This document shows, piece by piece, positions 54,693 to 63,627 of a DNA stretch of 64,000 nucleotides. Both the position numbers and the translations under genes were made by a program. The number at the start of each line of letters is the position of its first letter. Position 1 is the stretch's first letter. The notes below the pieces were generated by a model, which worked only from the letters and a program-made list of their open reading frames with translations, searched no databases and was not told the DNA's origin. Origin of the DNA: Litoreibacter meonggei (GTDB lineage: Bacteria > Pseudomonadota > Alphaproteobacteria > Rhodobacterales > Rhodobacteraceae); assembly GCF_003663885.1 (NCBI RefSeq), contig NZ_RCCE01000001.1:1-64000 (forward strand). Reading direction: 5' to 3'.

Positions 54693-55437
54693 GCAACAAA
54701 CGCCAACGCTTTCCAAACTCGCTTAGGCCCAAAGCCCCGTCCGCCACACGCGTGGGGTTAGCGATGACTTGCTTCAACAACGCGCGCGTCTGCCAGCCTT
54801 CGGTAAGCGCCGATGCGGCGTAAGGCCCCAATTTTCGCTTCAATGCAGCGTGTGACGGCATAGCCGCCAGCACGCGCATACACAGGTCAGCGATGGCCTG
54901 CGGCCGGCCGTCAACTAAAGGACGTCGCCCTCGGGCTTCCAGCTCCGGCGCGGCCTGCAGAAAACGGGCCAAGCCTACAGCACGCCCATACGCGATAACA
55001 TCATCTTTGGCATCGACGGGCCCGCCAAGGGTGCAGGCAGCTGCCCACATCAGACCACCAGCGGTGTCGTCCAGATAGGTCAGCAAATCAACCTCATCTT
55101 CAAAAGCTTCTTTGTAGATGTCCCAACGGCGCGCCTGGACCAATCGATCAAGCTGCGCTGCCTCGGCGGCCCCTAAAGATGCAGCCAGCGCAGTGGTGAC
55201 CTCATGCCCGCGTACCGGCTTGCCCTCGGCGATCTCTTCCAACGCGTCGCGCCACCATTGCAGGCGCATTTCGGCGATCATCGGCTCCTGGGTCACCCAT
55301 GGCGCGCGGCTGACCTCGACATTCATCGCATAGAGCGGCCAGAGCACCTTTTGCGCCGCCTCAGTACCCAGTTGGGCGGCTGCAAACCTGTCGGGGTCCG
55401 CGCGCTCCACCAAGGCGCGGCACGCCTCAAGAGACAT
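54685..55437 (-). CDS. Squalene/phytoene synthase-like protein (NDUFAF6-related)
   Basis: 250 residues from the ATG at 55437. The squalene/phytoene synthase fold is suggested by LQWWRDALEEIAEGKPVRGHEVTTAL and DLLTYLDDTAGGLMWAAACTLG. The two Asp-rich DxxxD motifs needed for prenyl condensation are incomplete (YLDDTAGG only partly matches). This is typical of the NDUFAF6-like branch found near metabolic genes in alphaproteobacteria, so real synthase activity is doubtful. It overlaps the end of cimA by 11 bases. Confidence 0.78.
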   Translation of the reverse strand: MSLEACRALVERADPDRFAAAQLGTEAAQKVLWPLYAMNVEVSRAPWVTQEPMIAEMRLQWWRDALEEIAEGKPVRGHEVTTALAASLGAAEAAQLDRLVQARRWDIYKEAFEDEVDLLTYLDDTAGGLMWAAACTLGGPVDAKDDVIAYGRAVGLARFLQAAPELEARGRRPLVDGRPQAIADLCMRVLAAMPSHAALKRKLGPYAASALTEGWQTRALLKQVIANPTRVADGALGLSEFGKRWRLLLS

Positions 55438-57046
55438 GCGCGCCCTCTTGCACCAGCTTCCAGTTGATCGCGTCCAAAAGCGCCTCGAACGAGGCGTCCA
55501 CGATGTTGGGCGACACGCCAACTGTCGACCAGCGGCGGCCCTTGCTGTCGGCGCTGTCGATAATGACGCGGGTCACGGCCTCTGTGCCGCCTTGGGTGAT
55601 GCGGACCTTGAAATCGACCAAGCGCATGTCATCGATCATGGCGCTATACGGCCCCAAATCCTTGGCCAGCGCCTTGGACAAGGCGTTCACAGGACCGCGG
55701 TCGGAGCCGGTCTCGTCCATGCTCTCCGACACCGACAACATCTTGTCTTTGCCCACTTTTACCACGACAACGGCCTCGGACAGGCTGATCATCTTGTCAT
55801 ATTTGTTCTTCCGACGCTCCACGGTGACCTTGTAACGCTTCACCTCGAAGAACTTTGGCAGAAGGCCAAGCTCACGGCGGGCCAGAAGCTCGAACGAGGC
55901 TTGGGCGGTGTCGTAGGAATAGCCGTCATCCTCGCGCTGCTTAATTACATCAAGAATGCGCGGCAAAGCACTGGTATCAATGTCTTTCAATCCCATCTCC
56001 GCCAGACGTTTGCGCAAGTTGGACTGCCCCGCCTGATTGCTCATCGGGATGATGCGGGAATTACCGACCAAATCTGGGTCGATATGCTCGTAAGTCGCTG
56101 GATCCTTTAGGATTGCCGAGGCGTGAAGACCTGCTTTATGCGCAAACGCCGAGGCGCCCACATAGGGCGCGTGTTTGTTGGGAACGCGGTTCAGGATGTC
56201 GTCCAACTTGCGGGACGCCAAGGTCAACAGGTTCAAGTTTTCTGCTTTGACACCAATTGCATAGCGGGACTTGTAAGGCTCTTTCAGCAGCAAGGTCGGG
56301 ATCAGGGAGGTCAGGTTGGCATTGCCACACCGCTCCCCCAACCCGTTCAGGGTGCCTTGGATGTGCCGCGCGCCTGCATCGACGGCGGCCAAGGAGCCTG
56401 CGACGGCGTTGTCTGTGTCGTTGTGGGTGTGGATACCAAGACGGTCGCCGGGGATACCGCTGGCGATGACTTTCCCAACGATTTCAGTAATTTCCGCAGG
56501 AAGTGTGCCGCCGTTGGTGTCGCACAGAACAACCAGCGCACCCGCATTAAAAGCGGCGTGGATGCAGGACAGGGCGTAATCGGGATTGGACTTGTAGCCG
56601 TCGAAGAAATGCTCGGCGTCGAACAGCGCTTCGCGGGATTGGCTGATGATATGCTGAAAACTTTTCTCAATGTTTTCAAGGTTTTCGTCGAGGGTGATGC
56701 CAAGCGCCGTTTTGACGTGGAAGTCATGGGTCTTGCCGACAAGGCACACGGCGGGGGTATTGGCGTTCAGAACGGCGGCCAGAACGTCGTCATTCTCCGC
56801 CGAGCGGCCCGCGCGTTTGGTCATGCCGAACGCGGTCATGGTGGCCTTCGTCTTCGGCGCGTTCGAGAAAAACTCACTGTCGGTCGGGTTAGCACCGGGC
56901 CAGCCGCCTTCGATATAGTCGACGCCAAGCTGGTCGAGCATCTTGGCGATCTCGATCTTTTCAGGGGTCGAGAACTGCACCCCTTGCGTCTGCTGTCCGT
57001 CACGCAAGGTGGTGTCGAACAGGGTGAGGCGCTCGCGAGAGCTCAT
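55427..57046 (-). CDS. cimA: (R)-citramalate synthase
   Basis: 539 residues, the length of LeuA-like citramalate synthases. The HMGL barrel begins [18 protein letters not shown] (residues 9-26), followed by the metal-binding [14 protein letters not shown] and [14 protein letters not shown]-terminal allosteric LeuA-type domain (from about residue 400) is present. It condenses pyruvate with acetyl-CoA on the isoleucine route that bypasses threonine. It overlaps cysS by four bases (ATGA) upstream and the squalene synthase-like gene downstream. Confidence 0.92.
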
Positions 57047-58455
57047 TTGAGGGATTCCCGCAAATCACGCAACTTATCCGTGGAAAGTATCAATGGATTC
57101 ACCGCATCCTCTCCGTTGATACTAACTAGCCACTTTTGAAGATCGAGGCCCATTTCTGTCGCCTGCTTGCGTATCAAATCAGCGGCTTCAAAGTTTTTCT
57201 CTTTTTTCAAACCATTCCAATGAGTGAAAATCGCTTCAATTGTCTCCCTGTCGCCTGAGGTCAATCCGTAACCAACTTGTGGCTCTTCATCAAACGGGTC
57301 CACACTAGGCAACGCTGGGTCAATTCCCATGAAACGAAGTGATGCAGCCATGGAATCTAAGTCGCTTTGCTGCCCGCTCTTCCAAAGCGCGTGGAGGCGA
57401 ACGAGCGCCAAAGGCGTATTCAGATCATTGGATAATGCTGAAACAATTTCAGGATCAATTGTGCCCGCAGTTCGTTGGGAAAGCGAAGCTCGCCATCTAG
57501 TTAAATGAGACACAGCCTCCTCCCGCTTCTTCTCCGTCCAGTCCATCGGCTTGCGGTAATGCGTGCTCAGCATCACAAAGCGAATCACCTCGCCCGGCAC
57601 GCCTTGCTCAAGCAAATCGCGGACGGTGAAGAAGTTGCCAAGAGACTTGGACATTTTCTTACCCTCGACCTGTAGCATCTCATTATGCATCCAGACATTT
57701 GCGAAATCGTGGCCTGCGCATTTGCTTTGCGCGATTTCGTTTTCGTGGTGCGGGAAGGTCAGGTCGTTGCCGCCGCCGTGGATGTCGAAAGCCGCGCCCA
57801 AAAGCTTATAGGCCATGGCGGAGCATTCGATATGCCAACCAGGGCGGCCCCTGCCCCATGGGCTGTCCCAGCCGGGCAGATCGTCGGAGGATGGCTTCCA
57901 CAGGACGAAGTCCATCGGGTCCTCTTTATAGGGTGCAACCTCTACCCGTGCGCCCGCGATCATGTCGTCGACGGAGCGGCCGGACAGTTTGCCGTAGTCC
58001 TTGTAGCTGCGCACCTTGAACAACACGTGACCCTCGGCGGCATAGGCGTGGCCGTTGGCGATCAGGTCTTCGATCATCGCGATCATCGGGGCGATGTAGG
58101 CGGTGGCGCGGGGCATGTCGGTGGGCTCCAGCGCGCCAAGTGCGCCCATGTCGTCGAGGAACCACCCGATCGTCTCGTCGGTGATCTCGGAGATTGGGCG
58201 GCCTGTCTGCGCCGCGCGGGCGTTGATCTTGTCGTCCACGTCAGTGAAATTGCGCACGTATTGGACGTTCTCCGCCCCGTATTCATGGCGCAGCAAGCGG
58301 TAAAGCATGTCGAAGACCAGCACGGGGCGGGCATTGCCCAGATGGGCGCGCTCGTAGACGGTGGGGCCGCAGACATACATCGACGCCTTGCCGTCAACGA
58401 GTGGTTTGAAGACCTCTTTTTGCCGTGTCTTGGTGTTGTAGAGCTTGATCGTCAT
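57043..58455 (-). CDS. cysS: Cysteinyl-tRNA synthetase
   Basis: 470 residues from the ATG at 58455. Class I motifs: zinc-binding Cys29 in [18 protein letters not shown] (the HIGH box reads HLGN), further zinc ligands in HIECSAM and FPHHENE, and KKMSKSLGN for KMSKS. It charges tRNA-Cys. A GAGG site precedes the start. Upstream, 126 bases hold a 13-residue ORF with three consecutive Cys codons and alternative hairpins, a candidate attenuator. It is co-transcribed with cimA. The reading frame from 58968 merely extends through this leader. Confidence 0.97.
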
Positions 58456-58479: not shown

Positions 58480-58577
58480 GGCGGGTTTAGCGAAACTGAC
58501 CAAAGATGGAAAACGCAAAACGACCCGCCTGAGAAATCTCAGATGGTAATGCAGCAACAAATGATGGTGCGTGTCGT
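58480..58577 (-). promoter_or_regulatory. Candidate cysteine attenuator in the cysS leader
   Basis: On the reverse strand, ACGACACGC (58569-58577, leader codons 2-4) can pair 8 of 9 bases with GCGGGTCGT (58520-58528), which is followed by the U-rich TTTTGCGTTTT. The GGCGGGT of the same arm can instead pair perfectly with ACCCGCC (58480-58486). A small hairpin CTGAG-ATTT-CTCAG (58529-58542) spans the leader stop. The two long pairings exclude each other, as in ribosome-mediated attenuation. Confidence 0.5.
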
Positions 58578-58580
58578 CAT
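58539..58580 (-). CDS. Cysteine-rich leader peptide upstream of cysS
   Basis: A 13-codon [16 protein letters not shown] followed by TGA, with the three cysteines at positions 8-10 read by TGT TGC TGC. It ends 83 bases before the cysS start. There is no Shine-Dalgarno sequence, but a leaderless start is possible, as is known for the Sinorhizobium trp leader. Its position, length and Cys run fit a sensor of charged tRNA-Cys for the gene that makes it. It is too short to judge by coding statistics, and function is inferred. Confidence 0.5.
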
Positions 58581-58701
58581 GGGGCGTTGGTAACAGGTCG
58601 GGCCGCGTCGGTCGAGCGTGGTTTTGTCCGCAATCACAAATTTCGATTTGACACGGGGCGCGCGGGCTGGCCCTGTCTGCGGACTTTCGAAGGAGGCGCA
58701 C

Positions 58702-62064: not shown

Positions 62065-63627
62065 ATGAACGACCAGTCCCCAAGCTCTCCCCGCCGCGCC
62101 GGAGGCCGCGCCGCGCGCCGTGCCATGCGCGCAGCCCCCCTTGCCACTGACAAACGCCCCATTCGCGCCGGTATGGAAGGCGGGCAATTGCGCGTTCTGT
62201 CCGACATCGACATCGCCAATATCCACGAAGCCGCATTGACGGCGCTGGAGCAAATCGGACTGGCGGATGCGCCGGAAAGCGGCGTTGAAATTTTGACCGG
62301 CGCAGGGGCAATTCTAGGCAAAGATGGGCGTATCCGCTTCCCCCGCGCATTGGTAGAGGACATGCTGGCGGTCGCCTGCAAGGACATGACGTTATGCGGA
62401 CGCGATCCCGAGAACGACCTACATTTGGGCGACAGGAAGGTGCATTTCGGCACGGCTGGCGCTGCGGTCCATGTGGTGGACGTGGCAGGCCGTGACTACC
62501 GCGAAAGCACCGTTCAAGATTTGTTTGACGCCGCCCGAATTGCCGACCAGTTGGACAACATCCACTTTCTGCAACGGCCCATGGTGTGCCGCGACATTGC
62601 CGACAATTACGAAATGGACCTGAACACCATCTACGCCTGCACCCGCGGCACCACCAAGCATGTCGGCGTGTCTTTCACCGAGCCGGACTACGTCGCGGGC
62701 GCGCTGGAGATGTTGCACATGATCGCAGGGGGTGAGGATGCGTGGCGGTCGCGGCCCTTCGTGTCGAACACCAATTGCTTTGTCGTGCCGCCAATGAAAT
62801 TCGCCACCGAGGCCTGCCGTGTGATGGAGGAATGCATCGCAGGTGGCATGCCGGTGCTGCTGCTGTCGGCGGGCATGGCGGGTGCCACGGCGCCCTCGCC
62901 GGTTGCTGGTGCGATAGTGCAGGCGGTGGCGGAATGTCTGGCGGGCGTGGTCTATGTGAACGCCATCAAGCCGGGTCATCCCGCGGTGTTCGGCACGTGG
63001 CCCTTCGGTTTGGACCTTCGTACCGGGGCGATGTCGGTCGGCTCTGGCGAGCAGGCTTTGCTGACTGCTGGCTGCGCGCAGATGCACCAGTTCTACGGCA
63101 TTCCGGGCGGGGCCGCCGCAGGCGCGTCCGATTCCAAACTGCCGGACATGCAGGCGGGGTGGGAGCAGATGTGCTCCAACGTCATGGCCGGATTGTCAGG
63201 GCTGAACATGGTCTACGAGGCGGCAGGAATGCATGCATCTTTGCTGGGATTTTGCCACGAGAGCTTGATCTTGGGCAATGATCTGATCGGTCAGGCGCTG
63301 CGTTGTGTACGCGGAATCGAGGTCAATGACGAAACGCTCGCATTAGATGTAATGCGCGCCACCTGTCTGGGCGTAGATGGGGCCAAGGGTGTGGGGCACT
63401 ATTTGGGCGCGGATCAAACGCTGAGCCGGATGGAAACCGACTACGTCTACCCTGAGCTTGGCGACCGGACGTCACCCAAGGAATGGGCCGAGAAGGACAA
63501 ACCGGATTTGCTGAAAAACGCCACCGCTAAGAAAGAAGCGATATTGGCACAGCGGTCAAATGCGGAGTTTGATCCGGTAGTGGATCGGGCAATCCGCAAC
63601 AGGTTTGCGATCCACTTGGCCGATTAG
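62065..63627 (+). CDS. MttB-family (trimethylamine methyltransferase-like) protein without pyrrolysine
   Basis: 520 residues, the usual length. It is the TIM-barrel corrinoid methyltransferase family: VHFGTAGAAVHVVD, YACTRGTTKHVGVSF, FVSNTNCFVVPPMKF, GAMSVGSGEQALL. The frame has no in-frame UAG, so it is the non-pyrrolysine branch, whose characterised members (MtgB type) demethylate glycine betaine and related quaternary amines and pass the methyl to a corrinoid protein. The partner corrinoid protein is not in the window. The first 25 residues are Arg/Gly/Ala-rich (RRAGGRAARRAMR). The substrate is not determined. Confidence 0.88.
   Translation: MNDQSPSSPRRAGGRAARRAMRAAPLATDKRPIRAGMEGGQLRVLSDIDIANIHEAALTALEQIGLADAPESGVEILTGAGAILGKDGRIRFPRALVEDMLAVACKDMTLCGRDPENDLHLGDRKVHFGTAGAAVHVVDVAGRDYRESTVQDLFDAARIADQLDNIHFLQRPMVCRDIADNYEMDLNTIYACTRGTTKHVGVSFTEPDYVAGALEMLHMIAGGEDAWRSRPFVSNTNCFVVPPMKFATEACRVMEECIAGGMPVLLLSAGMAGATAPSPVAGAIVQAVAECLAGVVYVNAIKPGHPAVFGTWPFGLDLRTGAMSVGSGEQALLTAGCAQMHQFYGIPGGAAAGASDSKLPDMQAGWEQMCSNVMAGLSGLNMVYEAAGMHASLLGFCHESLILGNDLIGQALRCVRGIEVNDETLALDVMRATCLGVDGAKGVGHYLGADQTLSRMETDYVYPELGDRTSPKEWAEKDKPDLLKNATAKKEAILAQRSNAEFDPVVDRAIRNRFAIHLAD

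Follow-up and report, generated by a model that had tools for sequence, protein, structure and literature searches.

The window, the whole 64,000-nucleotide stretch of Litoreibacter meonggei DNA analyzed here, carries a cysteine–tRNA ligase gene (cysS) and, downstream of it, a citramalate synthase gene (cimA), whose start shares 4 bases with the end of cysS (Table 1). A short upstream open reading frame (uORF) precedes cysS on the same strand. Its consecutive cysteine codons, TGT TGC TGC, are codons 8–10, and its stop codon lies 83 nt before the cysS ATG. A sequence-only reading of this DNA had described a 13-residue leader with three successive Cys codons and a stop at this distance, and had proposed it as part of a cysteine attenuator of cysS; the translation of the window agrees with the description in every particular. 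The leader gave no match in an Rfam search. The observation is confirmed as real and far beyond chance.

The beginning of the leader can pair with RNA downstream of its stop codon. Arm 1, GACGACACGC, which extends from the start-codon G to the end of codon 4, pairs with the arm 2 segment 58528–58519, GCGGGTCGTT. The predicted pairing of leader codons 2–4 with 58520–58528 is right (8 of 9 pairs), and the U-rich run placed after arm 2 is present at the coordinates given for it. The alternative partner proposed for arm 2 also holds, as its segment 58529–58523 (GGCGGGT) is perfectly complementary to arm 3 (ACCCGCC). Because arm 2 is used in both, pairings 1:2 and 2:3 are mutually exclusive. A small hairpin over the uORF stop codon, the 1:2 helix and the U-rich run are all present in the element. 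On its own, the window sequence proves little. Single-sequence folding of the leader is ordinary compared with shuffles (z −1.0 and 0.0), and a consensus scan of the window returned neither a promoter nor a canonical terminator, the U-rich run being non-canonical. Comparison with relatives carries the case.

Table 1. Coordinates in the window of the cysS–cimA genes and of the predicted leader features.
Feature	Position	Strand	Basis
P1 position, TCGACC-N17-TACCAA (weak in the window)	58587..58615	minus	family logo and spacing
Leader uORF, 13 codons (4 Ile, 3 Cys)	58580-58539	minus	ORF translation; Cys/Ile uORF at the same place in family upstream regions
Arm 1, GACGACACGC	58578-58569	minus	pairing with arm 2; family swap test
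Small hairpin over the uORF stop codon, CTGAGATTTCTCAG	58529..58542	minus	family covariation; double-changed cells
Arm 2, common to both exclusive pairings	58519..58529	minus	pairing and covariation tests
U-rich run TTTTGCGTTTT, presumed termination point	58510..58520	minus	directly after the 1:2 helix; pyrimidine/U-rich in family logo
P2, probable second promoter, TTTCCA-N17-TAAACC	58484..58512	minus	motif conservation
Arm 3, ACCCGCC, alternative partner of arm 2	58480..58486	minus	swapped-partner test; double-changed cells
cysS, cysteine--tRNA ligase	57043..58455	minus	TIGR00435, 442.5 bits (cut-off 340)
cimA, citramalate synthase	55427..57046	minus	TIGR00977, 582.9 bits (cut-off 450)

The sequence-only reading knew of polycysteine leaders in actinobacteria, but of none like this at cysS in roseobacters. 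The leader was in fact published in 2021, with the same mechanism, as the uORFC-8-2 motif (Brewer et al., RNA Biol, PMC8632094), of which 145 examples are reported, exclusively upstream of cysS in Rhodobacterales. In the motif, a uORF carrying a tandem pair of Cys codons is combined with stems and a U-run; ribosome-mediated attenuation responding to Cys-tRNA was proposed for it. The gene, the order of the parts, the tandem-Cys uORF and the proposed attenuation are the same in the window, the stems followed by a U-run appear to correspond, and the window's element is evidently a member of uORFC-8-2. Given this description, the finding of a cysteine attenuator is that of a known element. The Cys codons are usually at positions 14 and 15 in the published motif, whereas they are at 8–10 in the window and mostly at 8–11 in the 143 family leaders described below; we take this mismatch to mean that the start was chosen, or the codons counted, differently. 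In the accessible text of that account, Cys is the only amino acid considered, and isoleucine, cimA, a leaderless start, an arm 3 pairing and a second promoter do not appear. The open-access literature yielded no other paper on uORFC-8-2, nor any that deals with Ile or cimA in this motif. As far as searched, reading the leader for both Cys and Ile is new, and so is the broader distribution described here. The relation of dual leaders to cimA linkage outside the family, and the Cys-only and Ile-only leaders of a genome with the two genes apart, were likewise absent from the papers searched.

The gene cysS is present in 193 of 198 sampled genomes of Rhodobacteraceae, and we examined the upstream regions of 160 of these 198. 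A uORF was accepted if it started with ATG, had 8–18 codons and ended 62–130 nt before cysS, the candidate with the best Cys+Ile content being taken. Any such uORF was found in 146/160 regions, and one with at least three Cys+Ile in 143/160. Controls were needed because the rule favors Cys+Ile: when shifted 110 and 200 nt upstream it gave 1/160 and 0/160, and on the antisense strand, where position was constrained less tightly, 11/160. The leader of one locus (L116) falls outside the position rule, so the count of 143 is slightly low. At least one Cys is present in 142 of the 143 leaders, and the Cys codons are conserved across the family; at least two Ile are present in 141.

After the Met, the 143 leaders consist of 31.0% Ile and 21.9% Cys, compared with 4.7% and 1.6% in seven genes of the window. 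The leader is as much an isoleucine leader as a cysteine leader, which we did not find in print. Phe (0.9%), Tyr (0.2%), Leu (1.8%), Lys (2.5%) and Asn (3.5%), whose codons are also A/U-rich, are seldom used; the scarcity of Phe, Tyr, Leu and Lys means that the Ile content does not reflect general A/U richness. Composition lends the Ile codons themselves strong support. The typical family leader has the form MKSICIICCIIPC, with a fairly constant IICCII core, and a tandem CC occurs in 92/143. TGC accounts for 356 of the 387 Cys codons; the Ile codons are ATT (300), ATC (241) and ATA (6). The most conserved Ile codon (alignment A1 columns 42–44), usually the third codon ahead of the stop, is ATT almost without exception (third base T 59, C 2), whereas ATC is commoner in the seven window genes. 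A nucleotide-level constraint at this codon is possible. In three loci (L043, L069 and L144) a further hairpin-like segment appears, by eye, to be inserted past the stop codon and ahead of arm 2.

The helices were assessed with an alignment-free test in which each leader's own arms were compared with arms exchanged among genomes. Own arms pair better for 1:2 (z 12.3), 2:3 (z 7.3) and the stop hairpin (z 6.2) in the 143 family leaders, with the reservation that swapping among genomes does not fully remove shared ancestry. In the same test, the uORF body against arm 2 gave z 0.2, and three control pairings gave z −0.5, 0.8 and 1.8. Contiguous 1:2 helices of at least 6 pairs are formed by 82/143 leaders (mean 44.5 and maximum 56 in 200 swaps), and 34 different arm 1 hexamers occur among them. 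Both pairings that the sequence-only reading had proposed show compensatory changes in Rhodobacteraceae.

An alignment-based analysis was less uniform. RNAalifold found no structure in a 129-sequence MAFFT alignment, probably because of alignment gaps. A second MAFFT alignment comprised 62 leaders, chosen by eye for regular spacing from 109 listed. Its top-scoring pairs, 30–36 and 31–37, join neighboring codons and score highest because TGC and ATT codons alternate. The next best are 64–123 (arm 2 with arm 3; 21 C-G, 21 G-C) and 8–73 (arm 1 with arm 2). Double-changed cells numbered 26 for 2:3 (11.4 shuffled), 33 for 1:2 (20.5 shuffled) and 8 for the stop hairpin (2.3 shuffled; all 8 in one of its four pairs), and in each case none of 500 shuffles reached the observed value. 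For 1:2, 52% of cells pair and slid versions reach up to 56%, the registers being mixed, and the number of 1:2 pairs with double changes is unexceptional (reached in 212/500 shuffles). As the alignment mixes registers, the swap test is the better evidence for 1:2.

A covariance model built from the Rhodobacteraceae element was searched in 240 genomes of the class. There were three strong matches, all within Rhodobacteraceae, and the outside matches were weak (9e-5 or worse); one of these, in G302 (0.0019), lies directly before a cysS. A second match in the L. meonggei genome (C1:695125-695234) is without a Cys/Ile leader and was taken as chance.

Upstream of the uORF, the family shows a promoter consensus TTGGCa-N17-TATGAc (P1), whose −10 T is 12–13 nt before the uORF ATG in 84/143 leaders. 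A genome of the same genus (L018) has TTGACG-N18-TATGCC with the −10 T 12 nt before the ATG. From this spacing, transcription would be expected to start at the uORF AUG or no more than a few nucleotides away from it. A second motif of the family, TTTCCA-N17-TAAGCC with the string TTGCTAAGCCC, lies between the U-run and arm 3. The string is found at 8 or more of 11 bases in 99/143 leaders, compared with 8/143 in a control region, and the motif is retained in four leaderless regions (L029, L102, L135 and L137). P2 is probably a basal, unattenuated promoter of cysS. A cysS transcription start downstream of 58569 had been named as evidence against the attenuator; P2, if real, would provide such a start, but beside the attenuator and not in its place. 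The same GCTAAACC element was seen by eye at a tRNA gene of the same genome (L209), where scoring did not rank it first. A G+C-rich stretch follows P2.

The leader can be read as an Ile sensor too because cimA, a gene of isoleucine synthesis, shares the operon. For Roseobacter denitrificans, the accessible part of PMC2749216 reports citramalate synthase activity, together with an isoleucine route of the citramalate type in addition to the threonine route. We defined a dual leader strictly, as one with at least 3 Ile and at least 1 Cys, together making up 30%, and judged linkage in 152 family genomes. The cimA gene directly follows cysS in 146 of them, lies 1.9 kb behind it in G170 and is distant in G045; in the remaining four (G105, G150, G047 and G011) no cimA was found. 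Dual leaders are present in 116/146 genomes with adjacent cimA, the other 30 failing the rule, in 0/5 with cimA far or absent and in 0/1 at 1.9 kb. Five of the six non-adjacent genomes have no Cys/Ile leader, and the sixth (G105) has MDWICCLCRA. A search for Ile leaders in front of the G045 and G170 cimA genes found none.

Eight further family genomes, in which linkage is unclear because contigs end, were left out of these counts; seven have a dual leader. In six of the eight (G102, G114, G158, G068, G195 and G182) no cimA was found anywhere, and all six carry the dual leader. Their assemblies consist of 110–870 contigs, and the contig with cysS breaks off within the gene or a short way past it. 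If the six are counted as unlinked, the contrast has p 0.03, and 0.13 if G170 is also moved to linked. That the Ile codons follow linkage to cimA is moderately supported by these comparisons, and the support depends on how linkage is defined.

Linkage of cysS and cimA is widespread in the class. The sample outside the family comprised 40 further genomes and 46 usable named loci. From the 80 named loci we had left out 14 of Rhodobacteraceae (10 with a dual leader by the strict rule), 10 of Gammaproteobacteria (none dual), two Rhodobacteraceae-like loci (L307 without and L314 with a dual leader) and eight with little flank or unclear linkage (none dual). G302 is outside the counts, as it came from the model search and not from sampling. 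Dual leaders were found in 8/42 cases with cimA adjacent and in 8/12 with cimA 0.9–3.5 kb downstream on the same strand, and were absent in 32/32 with cimA elsewhere or not found. All 16 thus have cimA downstream within 3.5 kb, a linkage limit set after the Rhizobiales data had been seen. The contrast between adjacent and unlinked (8/42 vs 0/32) has a Fisher value of 0.0085. When only direct adjacency is counted as linked, there is no association outside the family (8/42 vs 8/44), and 34/42 adjacent cases fail the dual rule. About half of the 16 are from Rhizobiales or Roseibium and two pairs have identical peptides; owing to shared ancestry, all Fisher values are optimistic. For Ensifer and Roseibium, cimA was placed on the same contig by matching coordinates only, because contig numbers differ between the two sources. 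Moving these to unlinked and dropping L284, which starts with GTG, gives 13/52 vs 2/34 (p 0.04). L284 and the 26-codon L237 are borderline among the 16. The shuffle expectation for ATG-started dual leaders, 0.03 of 28 and 0.15 of 25, is so low that the outside leaders are not due to chance.

Cys+Ile leaders before cysS are present in Rhizobium, Ensifer, Mesorhizobium, Devosia, Stappia and others, which we did not find in print. The sequence-only reading had spoken of roseobacters; these dual leaders in other Alphaproteobacteria show that such leaders are not confined to them. The peptides are MKTVICIICRKIIR in R. leguminosarum and E. adhaerens, MKTSFAICGICIIG in Mesorhizobium, MKTKCTIIACIITC in Devosia, MKTSSVTIITCRIIIS in Phyllobacterium, MTTATRNRISILIICS in Stappia, MTATRNIISITIICS in Roseibium and MKTAATIWCICCTIIIS in G318. 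In Stappia, cimA directly follows cysS; in the other named genera it is 1.1–3.2 kb downstream (distances worked out by hand), and in Rhizobium BK196 the interval is filled by same-strand frames. In the nine leaders of these genera, arm 1 at the AUG can pair with a post-stop arm 2 over 7–13 positions (the swap test covered the 143 family leaders), and TTGAC lies about 35 nt before the ATG in 8/9. This layout is weakly present in G254, G337 and G249. Relatives within the order numbered 4 for G318 and 1 for G254, L276 having been dropped as it has cysS sequence before the match. In the genus of G318, the end CICCTIIIS is kept and the start of the peptide varies. Outside the family, Cys+Ile content is kept and the peptide sequence is not. 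The cysS–cimA interval of one Rhizobium locus (L316 3727-6243) contains several same-strand frames with a GGCQCGA motif, which we take to be of the GFA family, and another frame there presumably resembles a prolyl iminopeptidase.

A few leaders are of a single-residue type. In G206, cysS and cimA are about 0.9 Mb apart; the cysS leader is Cys-only (MTCRCCRKNTTESLA, shuffle frequency 0.005) and the cimA leader (L358) is Ile-only (MNIINAIITKGLIISG, 0/400 shuffles). Over the 20 cimA regions examined, 0.017 Ile-only leaders are expected and one was observed; the other 19 of these unlinked cimA genes are without an Ile-rich leader. Hyphomonas has a Cys-only cysS leader (shuffle frequency 0.015), and no cimA was found there. 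The leader at the unlinked cysS of G105 is short, of the Cys type, with a single Ile. G014 (L156), where the pair is linked, has the Ile-only leader MNAPNRIIGIIIGG; the G302 leader is Ile-rich with one Cys near the middle. The cases of G206, Hyphomonas and G014 are few and lie in the predicted direction; the split-leader case is one genome.

We consider it likely, from these comparisons, that the element is a multivalent Cys/Ile ribosome-stalling attenuator of cysS–cimA with a near-leaderless transcript and a probable second, unattenuated promoter. P1 would start the RNA at or near the leader AUG. With Cys-tRNA and Ile-tRNA plentiful, the ribosome would pass the Cys/Ile codons fast and leave; arm 1 would then pair with arm 2 before the U-run, a pairing that the covariation shows, and transcription would presumably terminate early. 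If either charged tRNA is short, the ribosome would wait at the Cys/Ile codons, mostly codons 5–12, and cover arm 1, so that no 1:2 helix would form and RNA polymerase would read on. Arm 2 could then pair with arm 3, for which there is also covariation, and would be withheld from arm 1. Read-through would raise cysS and cimA together, restoring Cys-tRNA and the isoleucine precursor, respectively, and P2 probably supplies a basal transcript. The earlier stalling model had relied on the second pairing to favor read-through. This pairing does covary, but arm 3 lies past the U-run and cannot serve as an antiterminator at the moment of the termination decision; the 2:3 helix may hold the read-through form. 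The earlier idea of a Cys-responsive attenuator at cysS–cimA likewise stands as regards the conserved Cys codons and the compensatory changes in both pairings, but is probably incomplete, as the Ile codons are as conserved as the Cys codons.

The leader codons match the operon genes, Cys with cysS and Ile with cimA. We lean toward the view that one leader reads two unrelated amino acids, as the unrelated genes cysS and cimA share an operon, and that its codons follow gene content (Cys+Ile before linked pairs, Cys-only before a lone cysS and Ile-only before a lone cimA), a pattern that appears to recur in several groups of Alphaproteobacteria. The main competitor, which we regard as unlikely, is a Cys-only attenuator as published for uORFC-8-2, in which the Ile codons would serve as filler, keeping the RNA unstructured and rich in A and U. 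In its favor, no motif stands out more than the Cys pair, the operon begins with cysS and, in its accessible text, the published model (PMC8632094) names Cys codons only; moreover, ATT is used almost throughout at the most conserved Ile codon, and the six family genomes without a detected cimA retain their Ile codons. However, filler should include Phe, Tyr, Lys, Asn and Leu, all of which are rare, and the Ile-rich part does not pair with arm 2 (z 0.2). Cys+Ile leaders also recur outside the family in other residue orders, with 0/32 where cimA is unlinked or not found. The Ile-only leader before a linked pair (G014), the Ile-rich, single-Cys leader of G302, the Cys-only leaders at the unlinked cysS of G206 and Hyphomonas and the short single-Ile leader of G105 are further points against filler.

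It is improbable that the arms act on translation, governing access to the cysS ribosome-binding site. Arm 3 ends 20–29 nt before the cysS start in 88/143 leaders and is made after the U-run, so a 2:3 helix fits a finished transcript better. However, covariation does not support pairing of arm 3 with the region around the cysS start (z 1.4 in the swap test), and a U-rich run straight after the 1:2 helix fits termination. That the nascent Cys/Ile peptide itself senses, say, metal or redox state, or acts by arresting the ribosome, seems very improbable: the peptide is hydrophobic and Cys-rich, and its IICCII core is fairly constant in Rhodobacteraceae, but outside the family it is the content and not the sequence that is kept. 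The notion that conservation here reflects nothing but the cysS promoter P2, with a functionless leader, is barely tenable: the P2-like motif is conserved, even in four leaderless regions, but the uORF composition and three covarying helices speak against it.

Among known systems, the ilvGMEDA and thr leaders of enteric bacteria each contain codons of several amino acids that match the operon products, and these amino acids belong to one linked pathway. The window leader, in contrast, is common to a tRNA-synthetase gene and an unrelated biosynthetic gene. We know of no Ile component in the mycobacterial polycysteine leaders. The trpL/peTrpL system serves trp genes through Trp codons. In Sinorhizobium meliloti, also an alphaproteobacterium, it is described in the accessible part of PMC10117765 as a leaderless 14-codon attenuator uORF with ribosome-profiling support. 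The mycobacterial polycysteine ORFs (Canestrari et al. 2020, as given in the accessible part of PMC9031893) are likewise short and leaderless, with contiguous Cys codons and Cys-responsive attenuation; they belong to another phylum and other operons, and the covarying terminator-like helix is that of the window element.

If the dual Cys/Ile reading is true, a catalogued RNA motif of one order would gain a fuller logic and a wider range. It would suggest why cysS and an isoleucine gene stay together, would provide a case in which the splitting of an operon may go along with a change of leader codons, and would be a natural test bed for two-input attenuation. A further prediction is that laboratory symbionts related to Rhizobium and Ensifer, for which ribosome-profiling data exist, have a short gene in front of cysS.

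Elsewhere in the window, positions 63124-63223 (plus strand) match Rfam PYLIS_3, the pyrrolysine insertion element of mttB, with 44 bits. The match lies inside a 520-codon ORF (62065-63627) that is open by the standard code and presumably encodes a non-pyrrolysine MttB-like methyltransferase.
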